Shown here: positions 6,398-29,467 of the stretch, one piece after another
How positions within the stretch are numbered: the first letter of the stretch is position 1
How the letters are laid out: every line of letters starts with the position of its first letter
DNA from: Streptomyces sp. 846.5
GTDB taxonomy: Bacteria > Actinomycetota > Actinomycetes > Streptomycetales > Streptomycetaceae
Assembly (NCBI RefSeq): GCF_004365705.1
Contig: NZ_SOBN01000002.1
Span: 1,550,001 to 1,614,000 of the forward strand
Reading direction: 5' to 3'
Length of the DNA: 64,000 nucleotides
The notes under the pieces: model-generated
Told to the model about the DNA's origin: nothing
What the model saw: the letters and a program-made list of their open reading frames with translations, nothing else
Databases searched by the model: none
Position numbers and translations under genes: made by a program

Positions 6398-7663
6398 ATG
6401 GACGCGGCTGATGTGCTGGCGGCGGGGCTGGCGCGGGCGGTGCCGGGGGCGGTGAGCGTGGCCGGGATCGCGAAGCTGGAGGGTGCGGAGTTGTCGGCGG
6501 CCGGGCGGATCGATGCGCTGGTGGCGGTGCAGCGGGCGCGGTGCTGGCTGGAGGCCGTCCAGATCGCCATGCTGGCCGGGCTCACCGAGCAGCCCCTGAC
6601 CTGCATCCCCGGGCACCCCGATGCTCTGGGGGACTTCCTGGAGACCCAGGAACAGGTCGCCTGTGCGCTGCGGGTCTCCCCGGACACCGCCGGTGCCCGC
6701 CTGGTCGAGGCCCAGCAGCTCACCGCACGCTTCCCGGCCGCCCTGGGACTGCTGGCGGCGGGCCGGGTGCAGATCATGCACCTCAAAGCCCTGCTGGAAC
6801 ACACCGCTGTGCTGGAGGACGAGGTTGCAGCACGGGTGGAGGAGCTGGTGCTGGCCAAGCTGCCGACCCAGACCGTGGGCGCGGCCCGCAAAGCCATCAC
6901 CCGCGCCGTCCTCAAGGCCGACCCCGCCGGGGCCGAGCAGCGTCACACCCGCGCCGCCCAGGACCGCCGCACCACCCTGCAGCCCCACCCCGACGGCATG
7001 GCCTGGTACGGCGCCCTGCTCACCGCAGGCAACGCCGCCCTGGTCGACGCCGCCGTCACCGCCCACGCCCACACCCTGAACCCCGACGGCCGCACCCCGC
7101 CCCAACGCCGCGCCGACGCCCTGGTGGAACTTGTCTCCGGAACCGGGACAAGTACCGCCCCAAGCCCCACGATCGTGGTCACCGTCCCTTTCGACACCCT
7201 GATCGGCACCGCCGAACACCCCGCCGACCTGCACGGCCACGGCCCCATCACCGCAGGCCAAGCCCGCGCCCTGGCATCACGTCCCGGCAGCGTCTGGCGG
7301 CGGCTCCTGACCCACCCCACCACCGGCCAGGTCCTCAAGACCGACCCCACCACCTACCGCCCCACCACCGAAGTCACCCGCCACGTCACCGCCCGCGACC
7401 CCCACTGCCGCTTCCCCGGCTGCACCCGCCCCTCCCGCCCCTCCCGCCACTGCGACCTCGACCACGTCACCCCCTTCAACCACACCAACCCCCACACCGG
7501 AGGGCCGACCACCCCCGACAACCTCATCCCCCTGTGCCGACGCCACCACCTCACCAAACACCGCGCCGGCTGGCACATCGGCTACAACACCACCTCCGGC
7601 AACGTCACCTGGACCGCCCCCACCGGCCACACCTACACCGACCAACCCACACTCACGGCATAG
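6398..7663 (+). CDS. DUF222 / 13E12-repeat protein with C-terminal HNH endonuclease domain
   Basis: 421 residues: an alpha-helical DUF222 region (about 10-290) followed by an HNH nuclease module. The module shows CRFPGC, then CDLDHVTPF (His356), Asn375 in PDNLIPLC, and RRHH (His383-His384), so the metal-binding beta-beta-alpha residues are intact. Members are multicopy in actinobacteria and are suspected mobile or defence-linked nucleases, but no function is established. A very rich site, GGAGGGGG, ends eight bases before the ATG; a GTG nine bases earlier is less likely. Codons in the second half are extremely C-rich, with many Pro, Thr and His. Confidence 0.9.
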   Translation: MDAADVLAAGLARAVPGAVSVAGIAKLEGAELSAAGRIDALVAVQRARCWLEAVQIAMLAGLTEQPLTCIPGHPDALGDFLETQEQVACALRVSPDTAGARLVEAQQLTARFPAALGLLAAGRVQIMHLKALLEHTAVLEDEVAARVEELVLAKLPTQTVGAARKAITRAVLKADPAGAEQRHTRAAQDRRTTLQPHPDGMAWYGALLTAGNAALVDAAVTAHAHTLNPDGRTPPQRRADALVELVSGTGTSTAPSPTIVVTVPFDTLIGTAEHPADLHGHGPITAGQARALASRPGSVWRRLLTHPTTGQVLKTDPTTYRPTTEVTRHVTARDPHCRFPGCTRPSRPSRHCDLDHVTPFNHTNPHTGGPTTPDNLIPLCRRHHLTKHRAGWHIGYNTTSGNVTWTAPTGHTYTDQPTLTA

Positions 7664-9492: not shown

Positions 9493-9980
9493 GGGCCGCT
9501 GATTCCCCCGATTCGCTGACGTAACGTCATGAAACGGTCACAGAAGTGTCCTGTTCGGGTCGCGACACGCCGAGGGAGTCGCACTCTTTCGGGCCGCCAA
9601 CCCGGGCCGCGGGGACGGCGGAACCCTCGGCCGGGTCCCGATGGCCGAACGCCTGCCCCCAGGAGCCGACTTCACTCGAACAGACGTGGGCGGGACATCC
9701 GGCAATCGAGTGGCCTACGGACCCGAACCGTCCACGTTCTGGCTGCTCACAGCCTGATACCGAAATGGGCAAAGAATATTTTCCCTGCCGGGCGGCATGA
9801 AGTCCGCCGCACCGCCATCACGATCACCCAGAGTCACCGCCAACCGTTCCGCCCCGCACCGCCGCCCGCGCCGGGCCGTCCGTCCACCGAGAAGACCGGA
9901 TCCCAACGTCGCAATACTGACGGCTGACCGAACAAGTCCCCGCCGCCGTGGCGGGGCGGTCCGCCCGGACGCTCAGTCTC
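9493..9980. other. Intergenic region with a palindrome and hairpin
   Basis: No gene is supported in this stretch. It contains TGACGT-A-ACGTCA, a perfect 13-base palindrome at 9517-9529, an AT-rich patch around 9765-9785 that could hold the promoter for the riboswitch transcript, and a 7-bp GC hairpin (CCCCGCC/GGCGGGG, 9938-9956) just before the riboswitch. Confidence 0.45.
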
Positions 9981-10141
9981 GCCGCCGGTCGGACGTCAGT
10001 TCCGCACCCACCCATCGGCGAGAGCGGGAGACCCGAGTACGGCGGGACGGCCTGGACAGGACCGTCCCTTGGGGTGCAGCCACCGCGGTGGCCGGGCAGC
10101 TTTCGGAGCCCGAACCCGACAGGACACCTTCCGTAGGCGGT
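9981..10141 (+). promoter_or_regulatory. ydaO/yuaA-type c-di-AMP riboswitch
   Basis: The leader of the NlpC/P60 gene carries hallmark ydaO-class sequence. These include GCGGGAGACCCGAGTACG near the 5' side, TTGGGGTGCAGCC in the middle, and the 3' conserved block CCCGAACCCGACAG followed by CGTAGGCGG. The outer helix can be drawn between GCCGCC (9981-9986) and GGCGG (10136-10140). In actinomycetes this class senses c-di-AMP and switches off cell-wall hydrolases. The aptamer ends three bases before the Shine-Dalgarno, so control of ribosome access or of nearby termination is plausible. Confidence 0.85.
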
Positions 10142-10156
10142 TCCGGAGGAACCCGC

Positions 10157-10681
10157 GTGACCGAGTCCTCGAAGTCCTCGAAAACCTCGAAAACCGCAGC
10201 GCGCCCTCATCCAGGGCGCATCCGAGCCGGCCTGGTCACGGTCGTGACCCTGTCGGTACTCGCCGGCACCGGCCTGGCACCGGCGGACGCCGAGGCGGCC
10301 ACACTGCGGGCGAGAGCCCTCAGTGCGGCCGCCTCCAAGCAGGGCGACCCCTACCGCTACGGGGCGGCCGGGCCCGACAACTTCGACTGCTCAGGCCTGA
10401 CCCTCTTCGCCTACCGCCAGGCCGGCGCCCAACTGCCGCGCACCGCCCAGGCCCAGTACGACAGCGCGCACCACATCCCGAGCAGCGACCGGCTCCCCGG
10501 CGACCTGGTCTTCTTCCACGACGGCCGGCGCGTCTACCACGTGGCGATCTACGCCGGGAACGACCAGATCTGGCACGCGCCCCACCCCGGCGCGGAGGTC
10601 CGGCTGGAGCACATCTGGACCGACGCCGTCTGGTACGGCCGCCCGTCAACCGGTCAGCCGTCAACCGGTCAGAAGGTGTAG
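10157..10681 (+). CDS. Secreted NlpC/P60 peptidoglycan hydrolase
   Basis: 174 residues. A basic Ser/Lys-rich start leads to a signal sequence (about 20-48, cleavage near ADAEAA), then one NlpC/P60 papain-like domain: Cys78 in DNFDCSGL, His128 in VYHVAIYAG and His140 in IWHAPHPG form the catalytic set. It should cut stem peptides of peptidoglycan. The GTG start has CGGAGGA six bases upstream; open frame extends further 5' but runs through the riboswitch. The gene is a short version without LysM or coiled-coil domains. It converges on, and overlaps by 13 bases, the metallophosphatase gene; the overlap holds a tandem 15-base duplication. Confidence 0.93.
   Translation: MTESSKSSKTSKTAARPHPGRIRAGLVTVVTLSVLAGTGLAPADAEAATLRARALSAAASKQGDPYRYGAAGPDNFDCSGLTLFAYRQAGAQLPRTAQAQYDSAHHIPSSDRLPGDLVFFHDGRRVYHVAIYAGNDQIWHAPHPGAEVRLEHIWTDAVWYGRPSTGQPSTGQKV
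10643..10672. repeat. Tandem 15-base duplication
   Basis: CCGTCAACCGGTCAG occurs twice in exact tandem. It encodes PSTGQ-PSTGQ at the end of the NlpC/P60 protein and includes the first base positions of the convergent gene's stop region. Confidence 0.8.
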
Positions 10682-12222
10682 GTCTGGACGTCGAAGGTGT
10701 TCCCCAGCGAGTCGGTGGGGGTCACCGTCACGGTGCGGCCGCTGACGGCGACCTTGAGGAAGTGGTACACCTGCGCGTCGGACGTCGGCGCTGTCGCGGC
10801 GCCGCAGGCGTTGCCCTTGTTCTTGGTATAGCTCCAGCCGATGGCGTAGGCGTCGGTGCTGGAGCAGCCCTTCGCGCCGATGGAGGTGGACTTGGCTCCG
10901 CCGCCGCCGGTGACATAGGAGATGACCCCGCCTGCCGGGGCGGTGCTGCGCTGGTAGTCGTGGGCGTGGCCGTTGAACACCAACTGCACGCCGCCGGAGG
11001 CGAGCAGAGACTCCAACGAACCGCTGCCGGCGGTGACGTTGAGGTAGTTGTCGTCGGGTTCGGTGGCGTCGTCCGAGCGCAGCGGGAAGTGGAAGACGGC
11101 GAACTTGAGGCCGCCCGGGTGGGCCGCGAGGTCGGCGGCGAGCCACTGGTACTCGGCGGAGCCGGTGGTCCAGTGGGCGTCGTGGTCCACTTGGTAGATC
11201 GCGCAGTGCGAGCCGCAGGCACCGCCGGTGGCGGTCCCGGTGTTGCTGTTCCCCCAGGAGGCGTCGAGCATGTAGAAGCGGACGCCGCCGGTGCTGAAGG
11301 CGTAGTAGCCGGTGGGGTAGGAGCCGACCGTGCTGCCGTCGATCGACGGGTAGGAGGTCATCGCGTAGAGGCCGTTGGAGGCCGCCGCGGTGGTGCTCTC
11401 GGGCCAGTTGAGCAGATAGGTGCTGTTCTGTCCGTGGTTGCCGCTGACCGCGAAGACCGGCAGCAGCTGGCCGGGTTCGGCCCAGTAGGAGGGGCCGAAG
11501 ACGGCGCTGATGTCGACGCCGGTCTGGATGAGGTCGCCGTAGTTGGTCTGACTGCCGCCAGGGTACGCGGTGTCCCCGGCGGTGAGCGCGAACCTGGCTC
11601 CGCTGGCCGCGAGTTGGGCGTCCAGGTTGGCCTGGTTGGAGTTCAGGCGCCCGTCGTTGACGTTGCTGCTGGTGGTGTCCCCCCAGTCGCCGAAGACCGC
11701 GAAGCTGAAGGTGGAGCTGGCGTCGGCGGGGTCGAGGGTCTCGAACGTCGGGGTGGCGTGGGTGCCGAGCAGGTCCACCGGGGCGGTTCCGCCGGTGCTG
11801 ATGCGATAGCAGTAACTGCCGGACGGGTCCAGGCCGGTGAGGGTGACCGTGTTGCGGTACTCCTTCACGCCGTTGACCGTCATCGGGTAGCCCAGGGTGG
11901 TCGAGGTGGCGGTGTGCGCCGCGCAGTCGTCCGGGTGGCCGTAGCTGACCGTTCCCCGGTTCTGGGCGGTGCTGCCCCAGTTGATCTGGACGCCGGTCGT
12001 GGTGAGGTCGGTGAGGTAGGGGGCGCGGGTCAGTTGGGCACTGTAGACCGGCGTGTCCGCCGCGGCTCCGCCCGGCAGGGCGGCCCCGATCGCGGCGAGC
12101 GCACACAGCGCTCCGGAGGCCGACGCGACGCGGCGCCGGGTACGGGCGGGGTGGGAACTGCGAGATGGTGGTGTTGGCGTTCTCAGTTCATCGGGGTGGC
12201 GGTGGGGAACGGGGGCGGACAT
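10669..12222 (-). CDS. Exported purple-acid-phosphatase-like metallophosphoesterase
   Basis: 517 residues. A long Arg/Pro-rich start and hydrophobic segment (about 30-55, ending PGGAAADT) form an export signal. Residues 60-165 look like a fibronectin-III/PAP N-terminal domain (LTRAPYLTDLTTTGVQINW). The calcineurin-like core follows with FGDWGDTT, LTAGDTAYPGG, VSGNHGQ, FHFPLRS and NGHAHDYQR, giving all five dinuclear-metal motifs. It should release phosphate from esters outside the cell. It is the last gene of the six-gene operon, four bases after the GH99-like gene. An extracellular phosphatase here fits processing of phosphorylated surface glycans or phosphate scavenging. Confidence 0.9.
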   Translation of the reverse strand: MSAPVPHRHPDELRTPTPPSRSSHPARTRRRVASASGALCALAAIGAALPGGAAADTPVYSAQLTRAPYLTDLTTTGVQINWGSTAQNRGTVSYGHPDDCAAHTATSTTLGYPMTVNGVKEYRNTVTLTGLDPSGSYCYRISTGGTAPVDLLGTHATPTFETLDPADASSTFSFAVFGDWGDTTSSNVNDGRLNSNQANLDAQLAASGARFALTAGDTAYPGGSQTNYGDLIQTGVDISAVFGPSYWAEPGQLLPVFAVSGNHGQNSTYLLNWPESTTAAASNGLYAMTSYPSIDGSTVGSYPTGYYAFSTGGVRFYMLDASWGNSNTGTATGGACGSHCAIYQVDHDAHWTTGSAEYQWLAADLAAHPGGLKFAVFHFPLRSDDATEPDDNYLNVTAGSGSLESLLASGGVQLVFNGHAHDYQRSTAPAGGVISYVTGGGGAKSTSIGAKGCSSTDAYAIGWSYTKNKGNACGAATAPTSDAQVYHFLKVAVSGRTVTVTPTDSLGNTFDVQTYTF

Positions 12223-12226
12223 ACGA

Positions 12227-13480
12227 TCACCTGCGGCTCGGTTCGGGGGTCGGCGGGGCGGGACGGGTGAGGCCCTCCGCGCGGTCGGCGCGCCGTCTGC
12301 GGCGGCGTCGGCGGGCGAACGGGATGGCGGTGAGGACGATCAGCAGCGCGGCGAAGCCGCCCAGGCGCACCACATTGGTCCACAGGGTCTGCTGACTGAC
12401 CGTGCTGTGTGCGGGAGTCTGGCTGGAGTCGCGGGCGGCGAGCGACGAGGGCGCCGGGGTGGTCCGCAACTGTCGGAGCGTGTCCAGGAAGAGCGTCCCG
12501 TACTTCTGGGACGGCTCCACATAGGTGTTCTCGCTGAACTCGTTCCAGCTGATGAGTCCGAGGACGTCGGGCGAGGAGTTGACCGCCGCGCTGTACTCGG
12601 TGCGCAGGGTTTGGCCGTTGTCTCTCGCGACGGTCTGGGAGCCGCCGACCAGACGGGCGTCGAAGCCGGGGGCGAACGGTGCGATCCAGTACTTGCCGTC
12701 CTGGTGGATCGCGGTGCTCATGGCACTCAGCTTGGCCGTGTAGGTGGGGTTGCTGCCGGGGTCCACCGAGGACCAGTAGTAAGCGTCGCCGTCGGTGACG
12801 TCGGCGATCCGCCGGTATCCCTTGACGCTCTTCTCGGTGTTGAGGACCAGCATGCTGCCCCGCACGGGTGCGGTGACCTGGGCCACCTCGGTGTGGTTGA
12901 AGGACCAGGTGCCGCTCCAGATGGTGAGCGGCTTGCCGCCCAGGCGCAGGAAGACCGGGTCCGACGCGTACTGGTCCCGGAACAGGGCGAAGTCCTTGGC
13001 GACCTCGGCCACCGGCAGGGCCTTGCGTTTGAAGTCCAGGCCCTGGTAGATCATCGCCAGCTTGAAGTCCAGCTGCCGGGCGACTCCCATCAGCAGTTTC
13101 AGCCGGCGGTCGTCCGTGGGGGTGTCCTTCCAGCTGACGATGAAGCCCTGGATTCCGGCCGACTTCGCCCACTCGATCTGCTGCTTCATGACCGCGACGT
13201 CATCGCTGGAGTAGTGGCCGAGACGAGGGTAGTCGATCTTGGCGCGGCCCCAGGAGGAGGCGTCGAACCACTGGTAGAAGAAGGCCAGCAGCGGCACCGG
13301 CGAGTTGGCCACGGCCGCCGGCCCCGGCGTGACGGTGTGGCTCGCGGTGCTGCCCGCGGTGGCGCCGGCCCTGGGACGGTGGGCGCCGCCGCAGGCGGTG
13401 AGCACGGACAGGCCCAGGGCCAGGACCAGAGCCAGGACACGGAGCAGCAGCCGGCGTCCCAGCGGGGACCGCGGCCTCAT
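12227..13480 (-). CDS. GH99-like glycoside hydrolase, lipoprotein-like, C-terminally anchored
   Basis: 417 residues. The N-terminus (MRPRSPLGRRLLLRVLALVL to LTACGG) is a lipoprotein signal with a Cys. The catalytic region shows LLAFFYQWFDASSWG, YPRLGHYSSDDVAVMKQQI, GIQGFIVSWKD and WNEFSENTYVEPS, as in endo-alpha-mannosidase-like GH99 and GH71-like barrels. The last Glu-rich motif is the likely acid/base pair. A transmembrane helix near residue 375-395 and a run of arginines close the protein, so it may be held at both ends. Its ATG overlaps the upstream stop (ATGA). Glycan specificity is unknown. Confidence 0.8.
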   Translation of the reverse strand: MRPRSPLGRRLLLRVLALVLALGLSVLTACGGAHRPRAGATAGSTASHTVTPGPAAVANSPVPLLAFFYQWFDASSWGRAKIDYPRLGHYSSDDVAVMKQQIEWAKSAGIQGFIVSWKDTPTDDRRLKLLMGVARQLDFKLAMIYQGLDFKRKALPVAEVAKDFALFRDQYASDPVFLRLGGKPLTIWSGTWSFNHTEVAQVTAPVRGSMLVLNTEKSVKGYRRIADVTDGDAYYWSSVDPGSNPTYTAKLSAMSTAIHQDGKYWIAPFAPGFDARLVGGSQTVARDNGQTLRTEYSAAVNSSPDVLGLISWNEFSENTYVEPSQKYGTLFLDTLRQLRTTPAPSSLAARDSSQTPAHSTVSQQTLWTNVVRLGGFAALLIVLTAIPFARRRRRRRRADRAEGLTRPAPPTPEPSRR

Positions 13481-14769
13481 GCCGGCGCCTCCTTGCCGTC
13501 CAGGGGGTTGCCGTCCAGCGGGCGCAGCGGCAGCCGCAGGCCGCGCAGCCGCCCGAGCAGCAGCACCCCTGCGAACAGGACCAGCGCTCCGCCCAGCGTT
13601 CCGAGGTCCTCGGTGCTGATGACGGAGACGTCGGAGGTGTGGTCCTGGGAGAGCTCTATCTCTTGGTTGACGACGATGCCGCCGCCCGCCCGCACCGAGA
13701 CCGTGTAGTGGCCGCGGGGCAGGCCGGTGAGGGTGACCGAGTGGTCGGCCGCCAGCGGCACCTGACGGGTCACCCCGTCGGGCCCGGTGATGTAGGCGGT
13801 GCTGCCGGTTGCCTGGGAGAAGAGCGCGTCGTGCGCGGTGACGGTCAGGTCGTGGAACTGTCCGACCAGGACGACCTGACCGTGCCGGGCCCTGACGGCG
13901 CCGGACGAGGGGCTGATCGCCTGCCTGCCGGCGTCGGCGACCTGGGCCCCGTCCACGGTGAGCTGCTGCAGCGAGTAGGAGACCGGGACCAGGCCCAGGG
14001 TGCCCTTGACCGGCTTCGGGGTCAACCCGGTGAGCCAGACGCTGCCGCTGGTGGGGAGTTGGACCAGTTGGCCGCTGTCCCCGCGCAGCCGGACGCCGGA
14101 GATCCGGGAGGTGCCGATCGGGTTCCCGTGCTGGTCCGTGAACGTGGCCGAGACCGGGTACTGGACCGCGAAGGCCGCGGTGACGGTGTAGGCCTGGCGC
14201 ATGGGCAGTCCGGTGACCTTGGTCAGGTAGGTGTCGTCGGGATTGCGCTGCCCGGCCCAGCGGTCGAACCGCAGATGCTGCTGGGAGGTGTCCAGCGCGG
14301 TGGTCAGCAGGGTCAGGCTGTGCGAGGTCAGGTCGTGTTCGCGGGTGTAGGAGGCGGTGCCGGCGGCGTTGGTCACCAGCCGTTGGCCGTCGAAGGTGAA
14401 CACGATTCCGGGCGTCGCCGGAACGGTCTGCACCGTGACCGTCACCGGCCAGGGCCTGCGCTTGGGGTGCGGGCGCTTGGCCGCGGTGGTGCCCTTGTTC
14501 CCGTGCGGGTGGGCGCGCTTGGCCGGGGTGGTGGTGCGGTTGCCGTGCGGATGGGGCCGTTTCGCCGCGGGCGTGGTCGTCGTCTTGGTCGTCGTTTTGC
14601 TCTTCGTCGTCGTTTTGCTCGTGGCCGTGCTGGAGGCGGTCGGGGTCGGCGACGCCGTGGCGGCCTTCGTCGCACTGACCGACGCGGCGGTGGCCGTGTT
14701 CGTCACGGCGAGGGCGCCGCTGAGCGCCGCGGCGGCCAGCGCGGCTCCGGTCCGGTTGCGGATGCTCAC
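13477..14769 (-). CDS. Exported protein with Pro/His-rich repeats and C-terminal anchor; unknown function
   Basis: 430 residues; not recognised as a named family. Residues 1-28 are a signal peptide (ALAAAALSGALAVTNTATAA). Residues 30-110 are a Thr/Ser/Lys linker ending in imperfect repeats of AKRPHPHGN (three units). Residues 115-390 are beta-rich, with several Ig-like or carboxypeptidase-regulatory-like segments (YPVSATFTDQHGNPIGTSRI; VTLTGLPRGHYTVSVRAGGG). A hydrophobic helix (GALVLFAGVLLLGRL) and an Arg-rich tail end it. It is probably a wall-spanning surface protein. It overlaps its neighbours on both sides by four bases, so it is translated with the phosphoesterase and the GH99-like enzyme. 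Confidence 0.75.
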   Translation of the reverse strand: MSIRNRTGAALAAAALSGALAVTNTATAASVSATKAATASPTPTASSTATSKTTTKSKTTTKTTTTPAAKRPHPHGNRTTTPAKRAHPHGNKGTTAAKRPHPKRRPWPVTVTVQTVPATPGIVFTFDGQRLVTNAAGTASYTREHDLTSHSLTLLTTALDTSQQHLRFDRWAGQRNPDDTYLTKVTGLPMRQAYTVTAAFAVQYPVSATFTDQHGNPIGTSRISGVRLRGDSGQLVQLPTSGSVWLTGLTPKPVKGTLGLVPVSYSLQQLTVDGAQVADAGRQAISPSSGAVRARHGQVVLVGQFHDLTVTAHDALFSQATGSTAYITGPDGVTRQVPLAADHSVTLTGLPRGHYTVSVRAGGGIVVNQEIELSQDHTSDVSVISTEDLGTLGGALVLFAGVLLLGRLRGLRLPLRPLDGNPLDGKEAPA

Positions 14770-16229
14770 TGGTCCACCGCCCCGGAGCCGGAGTCGGAGG
14801 AGGCCGCGGCGAGCTCCCTGGGCTGGTCGAGGTCGGGCTCCGGCACCAGGTCCGGCAGCGCCGCGCGGGACCGCCGGAAGGAGGTGGCGAACGCCACGCC
14901 GAACAACAGCAGCACGAACACGGCAGCACCTCCGTAGAACCAGTAGATGATCGCGGTACGCACCAGCGCCGGCTTGGCCGCCACCGTGCCGTTGGGCACC
15001 AGCGCCGCTCCTCGGGGCGCGGCGCTGAAGTCGAAGGCTCCCCCGGCGCCGGCCAGGCCCGGTGAGGTGCGGTCGCGCGCGGTCAACGGCGCCACGCCCC
15101 AGTTGCGTTCGATGAACGCCAGGGCCGCCGAGGAGTCGAGCACGGTGTGGTCCACAACGCCCTGCCGGACGTAGGGGCTGATCAGCAGCGCCGGTACCCG
15201 CAGCCCGAGTTGGGCGCCGTCGGCCGCCTTGGGCGGGGCGACGTGGTCGTACCAGCCCCCGGAGCCGTCGTAGGACCACATGAACGCCGAGCTGGACCAG
15301 GCGGAACTGAGCTGGAGCTGGGTGACCAGGTTGCGGAGCAGGGCCTGACCGGTCGGCAACGAGCGGCCGGTGCGCTCGGCCCCGGTCGAGCTCGCGATGT
15401 AGGAGACGGCCGGCAGGGTGCCGGCGGCCAGGTCGCGGTAGTACTCGCTGAGGTCGGCCAAGTGCCCACGCAGGGCCGGGTCCTGGACGAACCGGGTGTA
15501 GTCCAGCAGCGGGACCCGTTCGGTCTGGGCGACCTGGTCGTTCTTCTTGATCATCTGATAGGTCTGCGCCGGGTTGTAGTCCTGGATGTAGAACTTCCAG
15601 CTCACGCCCGCCTGTTGGAGCCGGTCGAAGATGGTCGGCTGGTTGCCGTACCCGGTGGCCGGCACCTTCACGCTGGACGGCGCGGCGGCGGCCACCCAGT
15701 AGGAGCGGTTCAGCCGGGTCCCGTAGGGCGCGGCCGCGAAGAAGTGGTCGAACAGGACGTACTGGCTCGCGGCCGCCCAGGAGAACGGCAGGTCACGGGC
15801 GTCGTAGTAGCCCATGGGCAGCGTCCCGGTGCGCCCCTGGCGGGTGAACGCCACCGCGAAGCCGTCCATCCTGCCGTTGTCCCACTGACGGCTGATCAGA
15901 CTGGCGCTGGGAGCGAGCAACGGCACGGACACGCCGTGCAGCTCGTACGGCCTGACGCAGCCGCTCGATTTCACGCCCAGGGCCAGGGGTTGGCAGGCGC
16001 CGGCGGGGATGCCGTCGGCGCCCGGGTAGGTCCCGAAGAAGTTGTCGAAGGAGCGGTCCCCCTGCATCAGGAACACGAAGTGCTTGATGGGCGTGGCCGT
16101 GGCCGACTGCCGCGCGGGGGCGGTCGCGGGGGCGGTCACCGGGGCTGCCGCCGCCGACTGCCATGCGGTCGACAGCGTCAGCAGACCCGTGCACACCAGG
16201 GCGGCGGCGACGCGGCGCAGCTTCCTCAT
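14766..16229 (-). CDS. Phospholipase-C/acid-phosphatase-type phosphoesterase, membrane anchored
   Basis: 487 residues. It has a signal peptide (1-29), then the phosphoesterase (PF04185) fold with KHFVFLMQGDRSFDNFFGTYPG (49-70), YDARDLPFSWAAASQY, WSYDGSGGWYDHVAPP and RVPALLISPYVRQGVVDHT. The usual metal-site motif ENRSFDHYFG is changed to GDRSFDNFFG, replacing the Glu and Asn that normally help bind the metal, so activity may differ from classical phospholipase C. A C-terminal helix (about 425-450) followed by FRRSRA anchors the enzyme outside. Overlap with the upstream gene is ATGA. Confidence 0.85.
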   Translation of the reverse strand: MRKLRRVAAALVCTGLLTLSTAWQSAAAAPVTAPATAPARQSATATPIKHFVFLMQGDRSFDNFFGTYPGADGIPAGACQPLALGVKSSGCVRPYELHGVSVPLLAPSASLISRQWDNGRMDGFAVAFTRQGRTGTLPMGYYDARDLPFSWAAASQYVLFDHFFAAAPYGTRLNRSYWVAAAAPSSVKVPATGYGNQPTIFDRLQQAGVSWKFYIQDYNPAQTYQMIKKNDQVAQTERVPLLDYTRFVQDPALRGHLADLSEYYRDLAAGTLPAVSYIASSTGAERTGRSLPTGQALLRNLVTQLQLSSAWSSSAFMWSYDGSGGWYDHVAPPKAADGAQLGLRVPALLISPYVRQGVVDHTVLDSSAALAFIERNWGVAPLTARDRTSPGLAGAGGAFDFSAAPRGAALVPNGTVAAKPALVRTAIIYWFYGGAAVFVLLLFGVAFATSFRRSRAALPDLVPEPDLDQPRELAAASSDSGSGAVDQ

Positions 16230-17914
16230 GACGCCCTCACCTGATAGATGATGATCACCGGTGCCGGAGTGTCGCCCCCGGCTCCGGTGCTGACGTCCAC
16301 CGTGGCGGTGAACACCGCCACGCCGTGGTACTTCTGCACCAGCGCCCGCAGCTTGGCGGTGTAGAAGGGAGTACGGGCCGCAGTGTAGGAGTCCCACACC
16401 AGGTACTGGAACTGGTCGTTGCGCAGCGCCCGGTCCGGGTTGAGGACCGGGACGTAGGCGGGGTTGCGGTTGCGCGGGTCCGGGCTCACCGACAGCGCGT
16501 AGACCCGGTGCTGTCCGTAGTACTCCAGGACGTTCGCCATCGAGGGCCCGATGGCCAGCAGTTGGGCGCCGTGCGGGGCGTGCCGCTGCACCCACAGCCC
16601 GGCCTCCCGGCCGCCGGGCAGACCGCCGGTGCCCGCCAGGAACGTCCGGTCCGTGGACGGCTGGACCCGCGCCCACGCGGGCAGGGCCAGGCTCGCCGCC
16701 AGCCCCAGCGCCAGCACGGCCACAGCCACCGTTGCGGTCCGGCGCGGAAGCCGGTCCGGCGCCCGCTTCAGCAGCAGGGCGGGCAGGTGGACGATGGTGC
16801 GTCCGGCGAGCAGCACCAGAGCGGGAGTGATCGGCAGCAGGAACTGGTAGCCCTTGACCGGCCACACCGTGAAGAAGACGGCCGGGACGACGATCCACAG
16901 CACCAGCAGGAGTTCGCGCCAGGAGCGGGCCCGCCACAGCAGTGCGAGTCCCAGGGCGGCGGCCGCCAGCACGCCCCAGCCGATGGCGCCGGGCAGTACC
17001 TGCGCATAGAACGCGTAGGGATGGTTCGACCTGCGGAACATCTGGTAAAGCAGGTAGTTCTGACCGGTCTGGGCGCGCCCGGACAGATCGAGCACCAGCG
17101 GGCTGACCGCGATCACCGCGAGCGCCGCGCCGGCTCCGGCCACCAGGTCGCGCCCGCGGACCCGCACCGACCGGCTCAGGGCGAAGAAGGCGTAGCCGGC
17201 ACCCAGCAGCACCGCGCTGGTCTCCTTGGACAGCACCGCCGCTCCGAGCGATCCTCCGGCCGCGAGCATCCAGACCGTGGTGGAGGATTCGGCGTAGCGC
17301 ACCACGCAGTACAGGGCGGCGGTGGTGAACATCGTCATCGGGCCGTCCAGCAGCACCTGTCGGCTGACGACGACGTGGTAGGGCATCACCGCCAGCAGCA
17401 GCGCGGCCACCAGCCCCGCGGTGCTGCCGTACAGCCGTCGCCCCAGCAGGTACACCAGGGCGACGGTCACCATTCCGCACAGGGCCGGCACGGTCCGGGC
17501 GGCAGCGTCGCCGTGGTGGATCTTCATCACCAGGCCGATGAAGAGCTGGACCAGGACAGGATGGGCCCTGAAGATCGGAAAGTAGGACCGCAGCACGCTG
17601 TCGCCGCCGATGGACGCGCCGGTTCCGGCGTAGACCGTCTCGTCGCTGTTCAGGCCCACCGCCCCGAGCTGCCAGAAGCGCAGGAAACCGGCGACGGCGA
17701 GGATCAGCGCCAGCGGCAGCCAGGTCAGGGTCAGCGAGCGCAGGACGGTGTCGCGGCGGCTCCGATCCCTGGATCCGGACGCTGCGGCCGGGGGGTTGGC
17801 CGGGCTCGGATCCAGGGTGCTCTGTGGGCCGCCCGGCAGGGGGGCGCCGTCGACCGGCGCCTCCCTCTCGGGCGCCTCGGCCGAGGTGTCGGCCGCTTCG
17901 GGTGCCGCTGTCAT
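16226..17914 (-). CDS. GT39/ArnT-like membrane glycosyltransferase
   Basis: 562 residues: a Pro/Ala-rich cytosolic tail of about 60 residues, then 10-12 transmembrane helices. The first external loop holds LGAVGLNSDETVYAGTGAS; the Asp-Glu pair is the usual GT-C catalytic motif, and SRQVLLDGPMTMFTTAAL follows as in the PMT_2/ArnT family. Such enzymes move a sugar from polyprenyl phosphate to a protein, lipid or glycan on the outer face. The gene lies immediately after the GT2-GtrA fusion, which would supply and flip a polyprenyl-phosphate sugar, so the two make a plausible donor-and-transferase pair. The start overlaps the upstream stop (ATGA). Confidence 0.88.
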   Translation of the reverse strand: MTAAPEAADTSAEAPEREAPVDGAPLPGGPQSTLDPSPANPPAAASGSRDRSRRDTVLRSLTLTWLPLALILAVAGFLRFWQLGAVGLNSDETVYAGTGASIGGDSVLRSYFPIFRAHPVLVQLFIGLVMKIHHGDAAARTVPALCGMVTVALVYLLGRRLYGSTAGLVAALLLAVMPYHVVVSRQVLLDGPMTMFTTAALYCVVRYAESSTTVWMLAAGGSLGAAVLSKETSAVLLGAGYAFFALSRSVRVRGRDLVAGAGAALAVIAVSPLVLDLSGRAQTGQNYLLYQMFRRSNHPYAFYAQVLPGAIGWGVLAAAALGLALLWRARSWRELLLVLWIVVPAVFFTVWPVKGYQFLLPITPALVLLAGRTIVHLPALLLKRAPDRLPRRTATVAVAVLALGLAASLALPAWARVQPSTDRTFLAGTGGLPGGREAGLWVQRHAPHGAQLLAIGPSMANVLEYYGQHRVYALSVSPDPRNRNPAYVPVLNPDRALRNDQFQYLVWDSYTAARTPFYTAKLRALVQKYHGVAVFTATVDVSTGAGGDTPAPVIIIYQVRAS

Positions 17915-20556
17915 CCCAGGCCGCCATGCGGGTTGCGCGGCGGAGTCGCGATCCGTGCCGCCACCCCGGGCAGGGCGCCCAGCGGACCGGATCCGGCCGA
18001 CCCCCAGCGGGGCCAGGCACTGACCGGGGCCTGCTCCGGGCGCGGAACCGCGGCGTCCCGGCCGGCGGCGTCCTGTGCGTCGGCGCCCTGTGCACCACTG
18101 CCCTCGGTCCCCGACTGCCCGGTCACCTGCTCCGAGCCGTGTTCCTCGCGCAGCAGCCTGGGGATCTCGTCGGCCCAGCCAAAGCTGTCCGAGGCCAGCG
18201 CGCGGACCCGGACGTTGGACAGGAAGCCTTCCAGGATCTCCCGTTCCCTGGACTTGAGCTGGGCGTGGTCCAGGCCGTCGACGGTGATCGCGGGGGCCAG
18301 GTAGCGGTAGGGCGGGAAGCCGTAGGCGTCCTCGGTGTTGGCGAGCATCTGCTCGACCGCGTCGGCGTGGTCGATGTCCGCCAGGCGCGGGGCGCCGCGC
18401 TGGATCACGAACAGTTCCCGGACCCGGGTGGCGCTGCCCAGCCGGCAGGGCACCAGTCGGTCCACCGTGTACTTGGGCGGCGGCACCACGATCTGCGTGA
18501 TCGCGTTGATGCCCATGATCGGCAGGTTGAACCGGGCCAGCCGCAGCGCGATGGAACGGCCGCCCTTGGAGTGCAGTCGGCTCTGGAACTGCAGGCGCCG
18601 CCACTCCCTGGGCGTCAGATCGTCGGCGTGGACCGCGCGCAGGGTGTGCGAGCTGATGGTGAGCGGCTTGGGGAAGCACACGGCGTTGCCCTGGGCGTCC
18701 ACCACGGTCATGTCGTCGGAGAGGAACGTGCCGCCCTGCTCGCGCAGCAGCCGCAGGATGGTGGCGGTCTTGCCGGTGTCGGTCAGCGCGGACAGCATCA
18801 CCCCGGTGCCGTCCAGCTCGATGCAGGCCGAGTGCAGCAGCATCCGCCCGCGCGCGACCAGTACATGGCGCAGCAGCGCCTCGATCACATTGGTATAGAC
18901 CACGTGTGGGGACCGGGCCAGCAGCGGGCCGACCGTGATGGTGATGGTCTTTCCCAGCTGGACCCGGAAGTTGGCGCCCAGCCGGCCCAGGTGCTCCTCG
19001 TAGCGCAGCACCCGGCCACCCGGAGCCGCCGGGTCGGTGCCGCCGTGCTCGGTCATCGCGGCGCGCTTGCGCGGACTGCGGCCGCCGACGTCGCCGACCC
19101 GTACCGCGATGTCCACGTCGCTGTCGGCGATCCACTGGGCCCGGAAGAACTCCAGCTCGGGCAGCCGGATCTGGGACCCGATGGTGACCGCTCCGGCCAC
19201 GTCGTAACGGTACGTCAGGTAGTTGGAGCGCTTGCGCGACGCCGTCACCGGCAGGCCCGCCGCGGCGGGGTCGGCCGGATCGACCAGAAGCAGCACCGGG
19301 TCGCGTCCGCTCTCGGGCCGGGCCGCCCCGTAGATGACCCGGTCGCTGAGCAGGAAGCGCAGCAGAAACAGGGCCACCAGGGTGGCCCCGTTGGCGGCCA
19401 GGACGCCCACGCCCCAGACCACCAGCAGTTCGATGACCGGCAGCCGGCCCAGCATGAGCAGGTTGTTCATGGCGTAGAAGCGCAGCGCCCGCCCGCCGAT
19501 GGTGCCGTTGCCCCGGCCCCGGTAGACCAGGCCTTCGACCAGCAGGAAGTTCCAGGTCGTCGACGCCTGGGTAGCCAGCGCCGCCCCCACCAGGTGGTTC
19601 AGCCCAAGGACGTGGTACAGCAGCCACAGCGCGGCGGTGTTGACGACCACTCCGGACGCGCCGACCGCCCCGAAGGCCAGCAACCGCCACAGCTGGCGTC
19701 CGCGTTCGCCCTCGGACTGCGGACCGCCCTTGAGCTGTCCGATCAGCCGCTGCCGGCGCAGCCGCGCCACCTGGCGCAGGAACACCAGCCCCTCGCGCAA
19801 CCCGGCCTTGGTGTGCCCGGCATGGCGCGGCGCGAAGTCGTACGCGACCTCGGCGACCCGGGCGCCGGGGTTGCGCAGCAGCAGTTCCAGCAGCACCTTG
19901 AAGCCCTCGGGCCGCATCCCGCTCAGGTCCACCGCCTCCGCGCGGAAGACGAACAGCCCGCTCATCGGATCGCTGACGGTGGCCAGCCGTCGCGGGAACA
20001 CCGACTTCACCAGCCGCGTCGACCCGGCCGAGGCCAGCCCGCGGCCGGCGCTGCGCGCCCCGGCGCCGTGGTCCTGGAAAGCGGTACCCGATCCGGCGTA
20101 ACGGGTGCCGACGACGATGTCCACGCTGTGCCGCATCGCGGTCGCCGCGATCAGCGCGGCCGCCTCCGGTGGATGCTGCAGATCGGCGTCCATCACCATC
20201 ACCCAGCCGCCCCGGGCGTACGCGGCCCCCGCCAGCACCGCTCCGCCCAGCCCCCCGACCCGCTCCTCCGGCGGGCGCTGCAGCAGCCGCACCGGTACCG
20301 GGCACTCCTCGGCGGCGAGCTCGATCGCCTGCGCGGTGTCGTCGTCGCTGTCGTCCACGAACAGGATCTCGGCGTCGAGCGGCGCCAGCACCGGCCCGAG
20401 GCGACCCAGCAGCTCGGTGACGTTCTCCTCCTCGTTCCTGGTCGGCACCACGACGGTGAGTCGGACCGGTGCCGGGCAGGTGGTTGTGGCGGTCGTGGTT
20501 CTGGCGGTCGAGGTTGTGGTTTCGTGCGTGCTGGGACCGAACTCCCTTACGTGCAT
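17911..20556 (-). CDS. Three-part fusion: GT2 polyprenyl-phosphate sugar synthase, GtrA-like domain, HprK-like P-loop domain
   Basis: 881 residues. Residues 31-270 are a DPM1/GT2 transferase (VVVPTRNEEENV, DAEILFVDDSDDDT, VMVMDADLQHPPE, DPMSGLFVFR). Residues 287-412 are a four-helix GtrA-like domain, proposed to carry the lipid-linked sugar across the membrane. Residues 440-800 resemble HPr-kinase-related proteins: a beta-rich start, LHSACIELDGTGVMLSA, a Walker-A-like LTDTGKTAT (591-599) and a Walker-B-like FLSDDMTVVD. GT2-GtrA fusions are known; the added kinase-like part is unusual. The tail (820-881) is low complexity. ATG at 20556 follows AGGGGG by eight bases. It is the first gene of the operon. 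Confidence 0.88.
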   Translation of the reverse strand: MHVREFGPSTHETTTSTARTTTATTTCPAPVRLTVVVPTRNEEENVTELLGRLGPVLAPLDAEILFVDDSDDDTAQAIELAAEECPVPVRLLQRPPEERVGGLGGAVLAGAAYARGGWVMVMDADLQHPPEAAALIAATAMRHSVDIVVGTRYAGSGTAFQDHGAGARSAGRGLASAGSTRLVKSVFPRRLATVSDPMSGLFVFRAEAVDLSGMRPEGFKVLLELLLRNPGARVAEVAYDFAPRHAGHTKAGLREGLVFLRQVARLRRQRLIGQLKGGPQSEGERGRQLWRLLAFGAVGASGVVVNTAALWLLYHVLGLNHLVGAALATQASTTWNFLLVEGLVYRGRGNGTIGGRALRFYAMNNLLMLGRLPVIELLVVWGVGVLAANGATLVALFLLRFLLSDRVIYGAARPESGRDPVLLLVDPADPAAAGLPVTASRKRSNYLTYRYDVAGAVTIGSQIRLPELEFFRAQWIADSDVDIAVRVGDVGGRSPRKRAAMTEHGGTDPAAPGGRVLRYEEHLGRLGANFRVQLGKTITITVGPLLARSPHVVYTNVIEALLRHVLVARGRMLLHSACIELDGTGVMLSALTDTGKTATILRLLREQGGTFLSDDMTVVDAQGNAVCFPKPLTISSHTLRAVHADDLTPREWRRLQFQSRLHSKGGRSIALRLARFNLPIMGINAITQIVVPPPKYTVDRLVPCRLGSATRVRELFVIQRGAPRLADIDHADAVEQMLANTEDAYGFPPYRYLAPAITVDGLDHAQLKSREREILEGFLSNVRVRALASDSFGWADEIPRLLREEHGSEQVTGQSGTEGSGAQGADAQDAAGRDAAVPRPEQAPVSAWPRWGSAGSGPLGALPGVAARIATPPRNPHGGLG

Positions 20557-29161: not shown

Positions 29162-29467
29162 TCAGCCCCCCAGCGGCACCCGCAGGCAGCGGGTCCCGCT
29201 GAGGTCCAGCCAGGCGTCCTCGGGGCCGCGCACCAGCCGCAGCACCACCGCCTCGCACCCGGGGCAGCGGCCCACCAGCGGGCCCGGGGCCTGCCCGTAG
29301 ACGCGCAGCGACGCGAGCGGGCCGTTCAGACCGCAGGCCGCACAGCGGCCGAGCGCGGCGGTGACGTCCACGCTGAAGATCTCCGCGAGCGGCCCGGCCA
29401 ACGCGTTGCCGTCCTGGTGACGGTCCTGATGGCGGTCCTGGTGGCGGTCCTGATGGCGGTCGTCCAT
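29162..29467 (-). CDS. DUF6510-like zinc-ribbon protein with HQDR repeats
   Basis: 101 residues. The N-terminus is four tandem DRHQ units written by a 12-base DNA repeat. The conserved part has CAACG and CPGC, two Cys pairs of a zinc ribbon, with GPLAEIFSVDVTAALGRC before them. These small proteins accompany sulfite-oxidase-like and FNR-like genes in actinobacteria, and the same trio is present here, so it may serve that redox complex. GGAGG five bases before ATG 29467 favours this start over a GTG twelve bases earlier. Confidence 0.75.
   Translation of the reverse strand: MDDRHQDRHQDRHQDRHQDGNALAGPLAEIFSVDVTAALGRCAACGLNGPLASLRVYGQAPGPLVGRCPGCEAVVLRLVRGPEDAWLDLSGTRCLRVPLGG
29409..29456. repeat. 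12-base tandem repeat (four units)
   Basis: Units of CGGTCCTGATGG with single-base changes run in frame through the start of the DUF6510-like gene and encode repeated His-Gln-Asp-Arg. Copy number could vary between strains by slippage. Confidence 0.8.

Follow-up and report, generated by a model that had tools for sequence, protein, structure and literature searches.

Sugars carried on lipids supply much of the sugar transfer that takes place outside the cytoplasm, and how their synthesis and crossing of the membrane are controlled and energised is an open question. Among the closest described systems is that of Streptomyces coelicolor, in which Ppm1 (SCO1423) and Pmt (SCO3154) combine a polyprenyl-phosphate-sugar synthase with an extracytoplasmic GT-C transferase, and which also has a further pair of this kind, SCO4022-SCO4023, whose role is unknown (excerpts of PMC5882110). 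In this group of bacteria, the loss of polyprenol-phosphate-mannose alters phage entry and sensitivity to antibiotics, according to excerpts of PMC5882110 and PMC5982138, while the dolichyl-phosphate-mannose synthase (DPMS) of Pyrococcus furiosus carries the motif 89-DADLQH-94 (excerpts of PMC5526996).

The locus described here lies in a stretch of 64,000 nucleotides from Streptomyces sp. 846.5 (NZ_SOBN01000002.1, positions 1,550,001 to 1,614,000), referred to below as the window, in which six minus-strand genes (10669-20556) form an operon whose first member joins a synthase of this kind to a kinase domain. The operon is, on balance, likely to be a cassette dedicated to extracytoplasmic glycosylation from polyprenyl-phosphate sugars and to the trimming of the product, probably spread horizontally, and it probably builds or trims a sugar structure on the cell surface.

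Organization and conservation of the operon

All six reading frames are open and collinear, and the coordinates bear out the original prediction of a six-gene operon with 4-base stop/start overlaps at four junctions, the fifth (gene 5/gene 6) being a 4-base gap. Overlaps of this kind are frequent among actinobacteria of high GC content, which makes conservation a stronger test of the operon than the overlaps themselves. A simple gene caller weighted by the GC content of third codon positions recovers all six genes, with a shorter start for gene 1, for which 20640 is an alternative start and which has a G-rich stretch immediately upstream of 20556.

Conservation was followed using gene 1 alone as bait, and the neighbours of its matches were read afterwards. 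Besides the window, 18 loci are considered, that is, 12 of 15 relatives with matches spanning the GT2, GtrA and kinase parts (L021-L032), together with six loci from the genomes G080, G013, G007, G044, G182, and G651. The loci left out are L033-L035, in which only the GT2/GtrA part matched, L053 and L054, which were taken to come from the same genomes as L028 and L025, and the partial kinase matches in G077 (E-value 5.5e-11) and G833 (8.4e-12).

Genes 1-2-3-4-5 stand in the same order and on the same strand in 13 of the 18 loci (L021, L022, L023, L025, L026, L028, L029, L030, L031, L032, L037, L038, and L051), with disturbed frames in L032 and L038, and two more loci agree up to the end of their contigs (L027 as far as gene 3, and L036 in the order 1, 6, 2, 3, 4). 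A variant cassette, type II, is found in L024 and L039, where gene 1 is accompanied by genes for a BcsA-like GT2, for a GT39-like protein with a weak resemblance to gene 2, for a GH5 enzyme, and for a CBM96-metallophosphatase. The hosts include Streptomyces, Micromonospora, two metagenome bins (one of them Micromonosporaceae), and members of the window's own genus and family, as well as one genome from another order of the same class (G080) and one from another class (G182), so that the conservation of neighbours on which the original prediction was to stand or fall is not restricted to close strains. S. antibioticus and S. griseosporeus each carry all six genes.

Gene 1, a probable synthase fused to a kinase-type domain

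Gene 1 (17911..20556; 881 residues; this and all other features of the operon are on the minus strand) is the key part of the cassette, in which a DPMS-type GT2 is joined to a GtrA membrane domain and then to a kinase of divergent sequence with the HprK/PEPCK fold. The GT2 catalytic domain (19807..20466, about residues 31-250) has the DADLQH donor/metal motif at residues 123-128 and is followed by the GtrA/DPMS membrane domain (19333..19674, about residues 295-408; PF04138, E-value 6.4e-12), the two features by which a synthase of the DPMS type is recognised here, and in a phmmer comparison residues 31-408 match the P. furiosus DPMS (5mlz) with an E-value of 2e-39. In the earlier label “synthase/flippase” the flippase is unsupported, since the GtrA part corresponds to the membrane domain that synthases of the DPMS type have.

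The kinase domain (18142..19239, about residues 440-805) is more divergent. The families named in the original prediction are broadly right, the weak point being precisely the HprK match of the whole gene 1 protein, which lies below the Pfam cut-off (E-value 0.0076). Taken alone, the domain also falls short of the thresholds for HPr kinase/phosphorylase (18.3 bits against 240 for TIGR00679, and 17.6 against 33.3 for PF07475), and it has no match up to an E-value of 1 among the sequences of the PDB. The HprK/PEPCK fold is nevertheless supported by the predicted structure of the domain, which contains His575, a Walker A motif ending in GKT (Lys596), Asp614-Asp615, QSRLHSK at 658, and PPPKY at 692. 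The His, the Walker A Lys, and the Asp-Asp pair, which are the catalytic residues of HprK, are invariant in 15 of 15 kinase copies, and in 13 of 13 in a set that includes the distant copy of G182.

The fusion of GT2, GtrA, and kinase is preserved in the Streptomyces and Micromonospora loci, and no part of the operon is better conserved than the kinase, with an identity of 71-79% to the Streptomyces, Micromonospora, and type II copies, compared with 44-60% for gene 2 (Streptomyces and Micromonospora copies).

The association of the kinase with phosphatases

A gene of PF04185 or for a metallophosphatase is found close by in 17 of the 18 kinase-bearing loci. The exception is L055, where a gene of the glycerophosphodiesterase family, not included in this count, stands beside gene 1 on the opposite strand. 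A control is provided by DPMS-GtrA paralogues that have no kinase, for which 10 loci with 95 neighbours within 8 kb were available after L067 (no anchor) and L057 (a 5-kb contig) had been dropped, with L058, L063, and L064 being short or at contig ends. None of these 10 loci has a neighbour matching gene 3, gene 6, or the other metallophosphatase queries (phmmer, E-value up to 0.01, 95 neighbours), a difference from the kinase-bearing loci that is confounded by phylogeny. Similarly, the Pfam families of PF04185 and the metallophosphatases are not among the 25 commonest families of these neighbours, a ranking from which one or two proteins could escape.

The kinase-less clusters are another little-described surface-polysaccharide cassette. 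Their 95 neighbouring proteins include eight BcsA-like GT2, seven PMT, and seven galactose/glyoxal-oxidase-like proteins. The source genome of the window itself has one such cluster about 27 kb past the window end (L056, G000 contig C2 1640779-1641969), in which its second, kinase-less DPMS-GtrA gene is found with genes for a 1320-residue surface protein of lectin/Ig-like type, for a BcsA-like GT2, and for a PMT. Kinase-less DPMS-GtrA genes are likewise grouped with genes for a BcsA-like GT2, for PMT-type proteins, and for a large surface protein comparable to this one in L058, L062, L064, L065, L066, L068, and L069; this surface protein is galactose/glyoxal-oxidase-like where it was scanned singly (L062 and L068), and SCO1/SenC is present in some of the clusters.

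Genome G077 (L052/L077) encodes a distant HprK-like protein (the profile match given above, with no Pfam match) and, by eye, a second one, with GT2-like genes, a CBM96 gene, and a metallophosphatase in the neighbourhood, which echoes the kinase-phosphatase association.

The transferase, the stalk, and the GH99-like enzyme

Gene 2 (16226..17914; 562 residues) encodes a GT-C transferase of the PMT_2/GT39-like type (PF13231, E-value 4.5e-28), in which NSDE at residues 89-92 is invariant among the copies aligned. Its score against the protein O-mannosyltransferase Pmt (NF058602) is only 18.7 bits, with a cut-off of 800, and the best Pmt match of the genome is found elsewhere, with 265.7 bits, likewise below the cut-off. 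On these two results a canonical Ppm1/Pmt locus is rejected.

Gene 4 (13477..14769; 430 residues, GTG start) was originally described as a Pro/His-repeat surface protein, and the repeat is indeed present, in a linker rich in Pro, His, Thr, and Lys (14449..14661, about residues 37-107); this linker is not conserved, and the conserved part is the beta-sandwich of the ectodomain, which is predicted with a local distance difference test (pLDDT) of 86.1. This CnaB-like stalk resembles the pilins and adhesins of Gram-positive bacteria (4oq1, E-value 3.7e-9; CnaB domain 8bdw, TM-score 0.57 by target).

Gene 5 (12227..13480; 417 residues) encodes a GH99-like enzyme, with 56.3 bits against a cut-off of 33 for PF16317 (E-value 3.9e-15) and an E-value of 7.6e-12 to 4acy. 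The residues Glu314 and Glu317, within ISWNEFSEN, align with those of 4acy and are invariant in 13 other copies. In all four Micromonosporaceae loci (L021, L030, L031, and L022) genes 4 and 5 are fused into a single open protein.

Hydropathy places a C-terminal helix in every copy of gene 3 (10/10), gene 4 (8/8), gene 5 (6/6), and the fused form (3/3), the window genes 3, 4, and 5 included, and an N-terminal hydrophobic segment in gene 3 (10/10), gene 4 (6/8), gene 5 (5/6), and the fused copies (3/3), in counts for which some starts were trimmed by the gene caller. Judged by their sequences, genes 3, 4, and 5 appear to encode exported proteins that are anchored to the membrane at the C-terminus.

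Two phosphoesterase-type proteins

Gene 3 (14766..16229; 487 residues) belongs to the phosphoesterase fold of PF04185, with 210.3 bits against a cut-off of 23 (E-value 5.9e-62). In two solved relatives of this family, QEN occurs together with YDD or YDE, and QEN and YDD are intact in gene 3 of four Micromonosporaceae loci and of G182 (L021, L022, L030, L031, and L051). In the window, by contrast, the E-N and D-D/E residues, which we take to be the metal ligands, read G-D and D-G. Together with the window, seven other aligned Streptomycetaceae copies have lost the first motif (QGD or QGP) and have D-G in the second, with the exceptions of L032, where the frame is disturbed and the first motif unreadable, and L037, where the second motif is YEQ; the copy in G080 has QDQ and YDS. 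L027 and L038 were left out of this alignment. Since its probable metal residues are replaced, the product of gene 3 in the window may have lost or changed its activity, and the “two phosphate-ester enzymes” announced in the original prediction are doubtful.

Gene 6 (10669..12222; 517 residues, with a signal-like N-terminal segment) encodes a metallophosphatase of the purple acid phosphatase type, which matches PF16656, PF00149, and 6gja (E-value 3.1e-8). The motifs GD, GD, GNH, H, and GHxH, which we take to be the purple acid phosphatase set, are all present and are conserved in seven other copies. The gene is part of the locus in 7 of the 18 cases, either after gene 5 on the same strand (L023, L025, and L028), on the opposite strand (L026, L029, and L032), or between genes 1 and 2 (L036). 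This type of gene is rare, found in one of 150 genomes of the family at E-values of up to 1e-60, namely the window's own, and it is present in four of the seven family genomes that bear gene 1 (G000, G576, G748, and G651, the others being G013, G007, and G044). Fisher's test for gene 6 with gene 1 gives 1.6e-6, a value that ignores relatedness and linkage, and for which the gene 1 status was not confirmed in each of the 147 comparison genomes.

Gene 6 accompanies eight of the nine loci with altered gene 3 motifs (the window included, and L037 being the ninth), and none of the five with intact motifs, three of which (L021, L022, and L031) have another metallophosphatase. The phosphatase role may have been handed over, in a comparison that is confounded by phylogeny.

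A gene for an NlpC/P60 hydrolase (9797-10681, plus strand) converges with gene 6, the two sharing 13 bases at their 3' ends (window 10669-10681).

Rarity, spread, and neighbouring genes

Matches to the kinase domain are found in 3 of 396 genomes of a phylum sample (the window's own, G182, and one partial match), 7 of 394 genomes of the window's family (its own included), and 2 of 66 genomes of the class of G182 (G182 and one partial match), with only a few candidates scored per genome in the phylum and family searches. Given this rarity and patchiness, combined with the fixed gene order, the operon is probably a rare accessory cassette of soil-type actinobacteria that has spread horizontally. 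A weaker pointer is that the kinase of the window is as near or nearer to the Micromonosporaceae copies (71-75% identity) than to that of its genus-mate G013 (70%). The kinase and gene 2 trees (the latter omitting L051 through a length filter) are mostly unresolved, with the window in no supported set, and tblastn with the kinase domain returned no match in the plasmid collection.

Proteins with CBM96 and right-handed beta-helix domains are encoded downstream of gene 5 in three Micromonosporaceae loci (L022, L030, and L031) and in G182 (L051), and may bind or cut the product of the cassette. Upstream of gene 1, divergent ANTAR-domain genes (E-values of about 1e-19 to 1e-20) are found in L023 (9262-9543), L024 (8825-9184), L025 (9075-9392), and L028 (9155-9409), and as they occur in both types of cassette, they hint at regulation through antitermination. 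In the window the gene caller places no ANTAR gene upstream of gene 1, and there is no RNA element at the gathering scores of Rfam.

Elsewhere in the window are a gene for a DUF222-HNH endonuclease (6413-7663, plus strand) and one for a small DUF6510 protein (29162-29467, minus strand) in which HQDR is repeated at the start.

Proposed mechanism and alternatives

Reading the reactions and their direction from these domains, gene 1 would load a sugar onto polyprenyl phosphate at the inner face of the membrane, with the kinase attached to its membrane domain and facing the cytoplasm. On the outside, gene 2 would then take the lipid-borne sugar and transfer it to an acceptor, and gene 5, anchored in the membrane next to the gene 4 stalk, would trim the product, while gene 6, and gene 3 wherever its metal site is intact, would remove phosphate on the outer side. 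The sugar is most likely a hexose, probably mannose, which is preferred because of the DPMS match and because alpha-mannosides fit GH99, with glucose also possible, given that GH71 scores almost as well. The enzymes fit a lipid-linked, extracytoplasmic glycan. The original prediction, by which they look like a complete pathway for a phosphorylated or lipid-linked glycan, goes too far, as no nucleotide-sugar or polymerase gene is found among the six.

A number of observations weigh against this glycosylation cassette. Gene 1 stands without genes 2-6 beside it in L055, and gene 6 is absent, at E-values of up to 1e-20, from G182, G044, G013, and G007, the last two of which have genes 1-5. The Micromonospora loci have no orthologue of gene 6, some having a different metallophosphatase instead, and in G651 genes 1 and 6 are on separate contigs, with a gene 6 relative (62% identity) lying beside a GT39-like gene weakly similar to gene 2 (L087 8965-13614). 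To these are added the replaced residues of gene 3 in the window, the phylogenetic confounding of the kinase-less control, a kinase model of only moderate confidence (pLDDT 63.8), the lack of a GDP-mannose gene among the six, and a GH71 score for gene 5 (53.9 bits) so near that of GH99 that an alpha-glucan is possible. Among genes 3-5 of the window, moreover, the N-terminal segment is flagged for gene 5 only, genes 3 and 4 being below the threshold and signal-like by eye.

It is speculative that the substrate of the kinase is the carrier lipid or the sugar bound to it, with the outer phosphatases undoing the phosphorylation; both substrates are retained, at low confidence, because of the phosphatase association. 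A stronger version, in which gene 1 is bifunctional and the phosphate added inside by the kinase and removed outside (by gene 6, or by gene 3 in other lineages) drives or gates the export of the sugar donor, is unlikely. A kinase with a regulatory role is no less likely than one that acts on a lipid or lipid-linked substrate. Here the kinase would sense ATP or inorganic phosphate and switch sugar loading, or phosphorylate a protein such as the cytoplasmic part of gene 2, with no phosphosugar and with the rest of the cassette working as above, a possibility that deserves serious if tentative consideration. That classical HprK, a protein kinase, responds to metabolites speaks for regulation, as does the modification of lasso peptides by HprK-like kinases, whereas the status of the kinase as the best conserved stretch and its association with phosphoesterases, which regulation does not predict, tell against it without being decisive.

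The combination of DPMS and PMT_2 amounts to Ppm1/Pmt-like chemistry, and the operon could serve a protein O-glycosylation parallel to Ppm1/Pmt that decorates the Thr/Pro-rich stalk of gene 4, with its Thr/Lys/Pro/His-rich linker, or other exported proteins. The further pair in S. coelicolor, SCO4022-SCO4023 (excerpts of PMC5882110), also speaks for this reading, which is rather unlikely, since gene 2 is far below the Pmt cut-off, the best Pmt match of the genome lies elsewhere, the linker is not conserved, and the GH99-like enzyme and the phosphatases would be superfluous. Secreted scavengers are frequent among PF04185 proteins and purple acid phosphatases, and the ectoenzymes look membrane-anchored, so that they might free sugars or phosphate from environmental mannans or phospholipids, the transferases being unrelated in role. 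This is very improbable, given that no transporter or sugar-use gene is found among the six, that the 10 upstream regions scanned (the window and nine loci) contain no tandem PHO-box-like repeats, only single 7-mers in seven, and that synthesis and hydrolysis genes hold one order across classes.

Two other candidates were rejected. A known teichoic/teichuronic or protein-mannosylation locus, named beforehand as a match that would undo the prediction, is not matched by the family scores, with no teichoic or teichuronic family named among the Pfam/NCBIfam matches listed for the six genes, and for a defence system there was no PADLOC match up to an E-value of 0.001.

Comparison with known systems

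The original prediction did not recognise the operon as a described system, and no description was found in the open-licence literature searched. The chemistry is known, and the fusion and the cassette are, as far as these searches go, undescribed. A synthase-tied kinase conserved together with outer phosphatases across actinobacterial classes makes a kinase-coupled step directly testable, and the cassette may lead to a glycan on the surface of Streptomyces and Micromonospora that is as yet undescribed.

Unlike Ppm1/Pmt, the cassette has a synthase extended by a GtrA domain and a kinase, a transferase (gene 2) outside the Pmt family, and attached genes for a stalk, a GH99-like enzyme, and phosphoesterases. 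The P. furiosus DPMS shares the GT2 and the four-helix membrane domain with residues 31-408 of gene 1, with DADLQH kept, and has no kinase domain, as its chain of 374 residues is aligned up to residue 371. The kinase-less clusters have a paralogous synthase, mostly beside a PMT-type transferase, as in the cassette, but their similarity to gene 1 stops before the kinase, and their neighbours have no match to genes 3-6 (blastp and phmmer). HprK and the HprK-related kinases A/B share the HprK/PEPCK fold, the P-loop, and the Asp-Asp motifs with the window domain, which, unlike HprK, is far below the family cut-offs and is fused to a membrane sugar-lipid synthase, with no HPr among the six genes. 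Finally, gene 5 shares the family match and both catalytic-position glutamates with the GH99 endo-alpha-1,2-mannosidases, and differs from them in being membrane-anchored, beside or fused with a stalk, and part of a synthesis operon.

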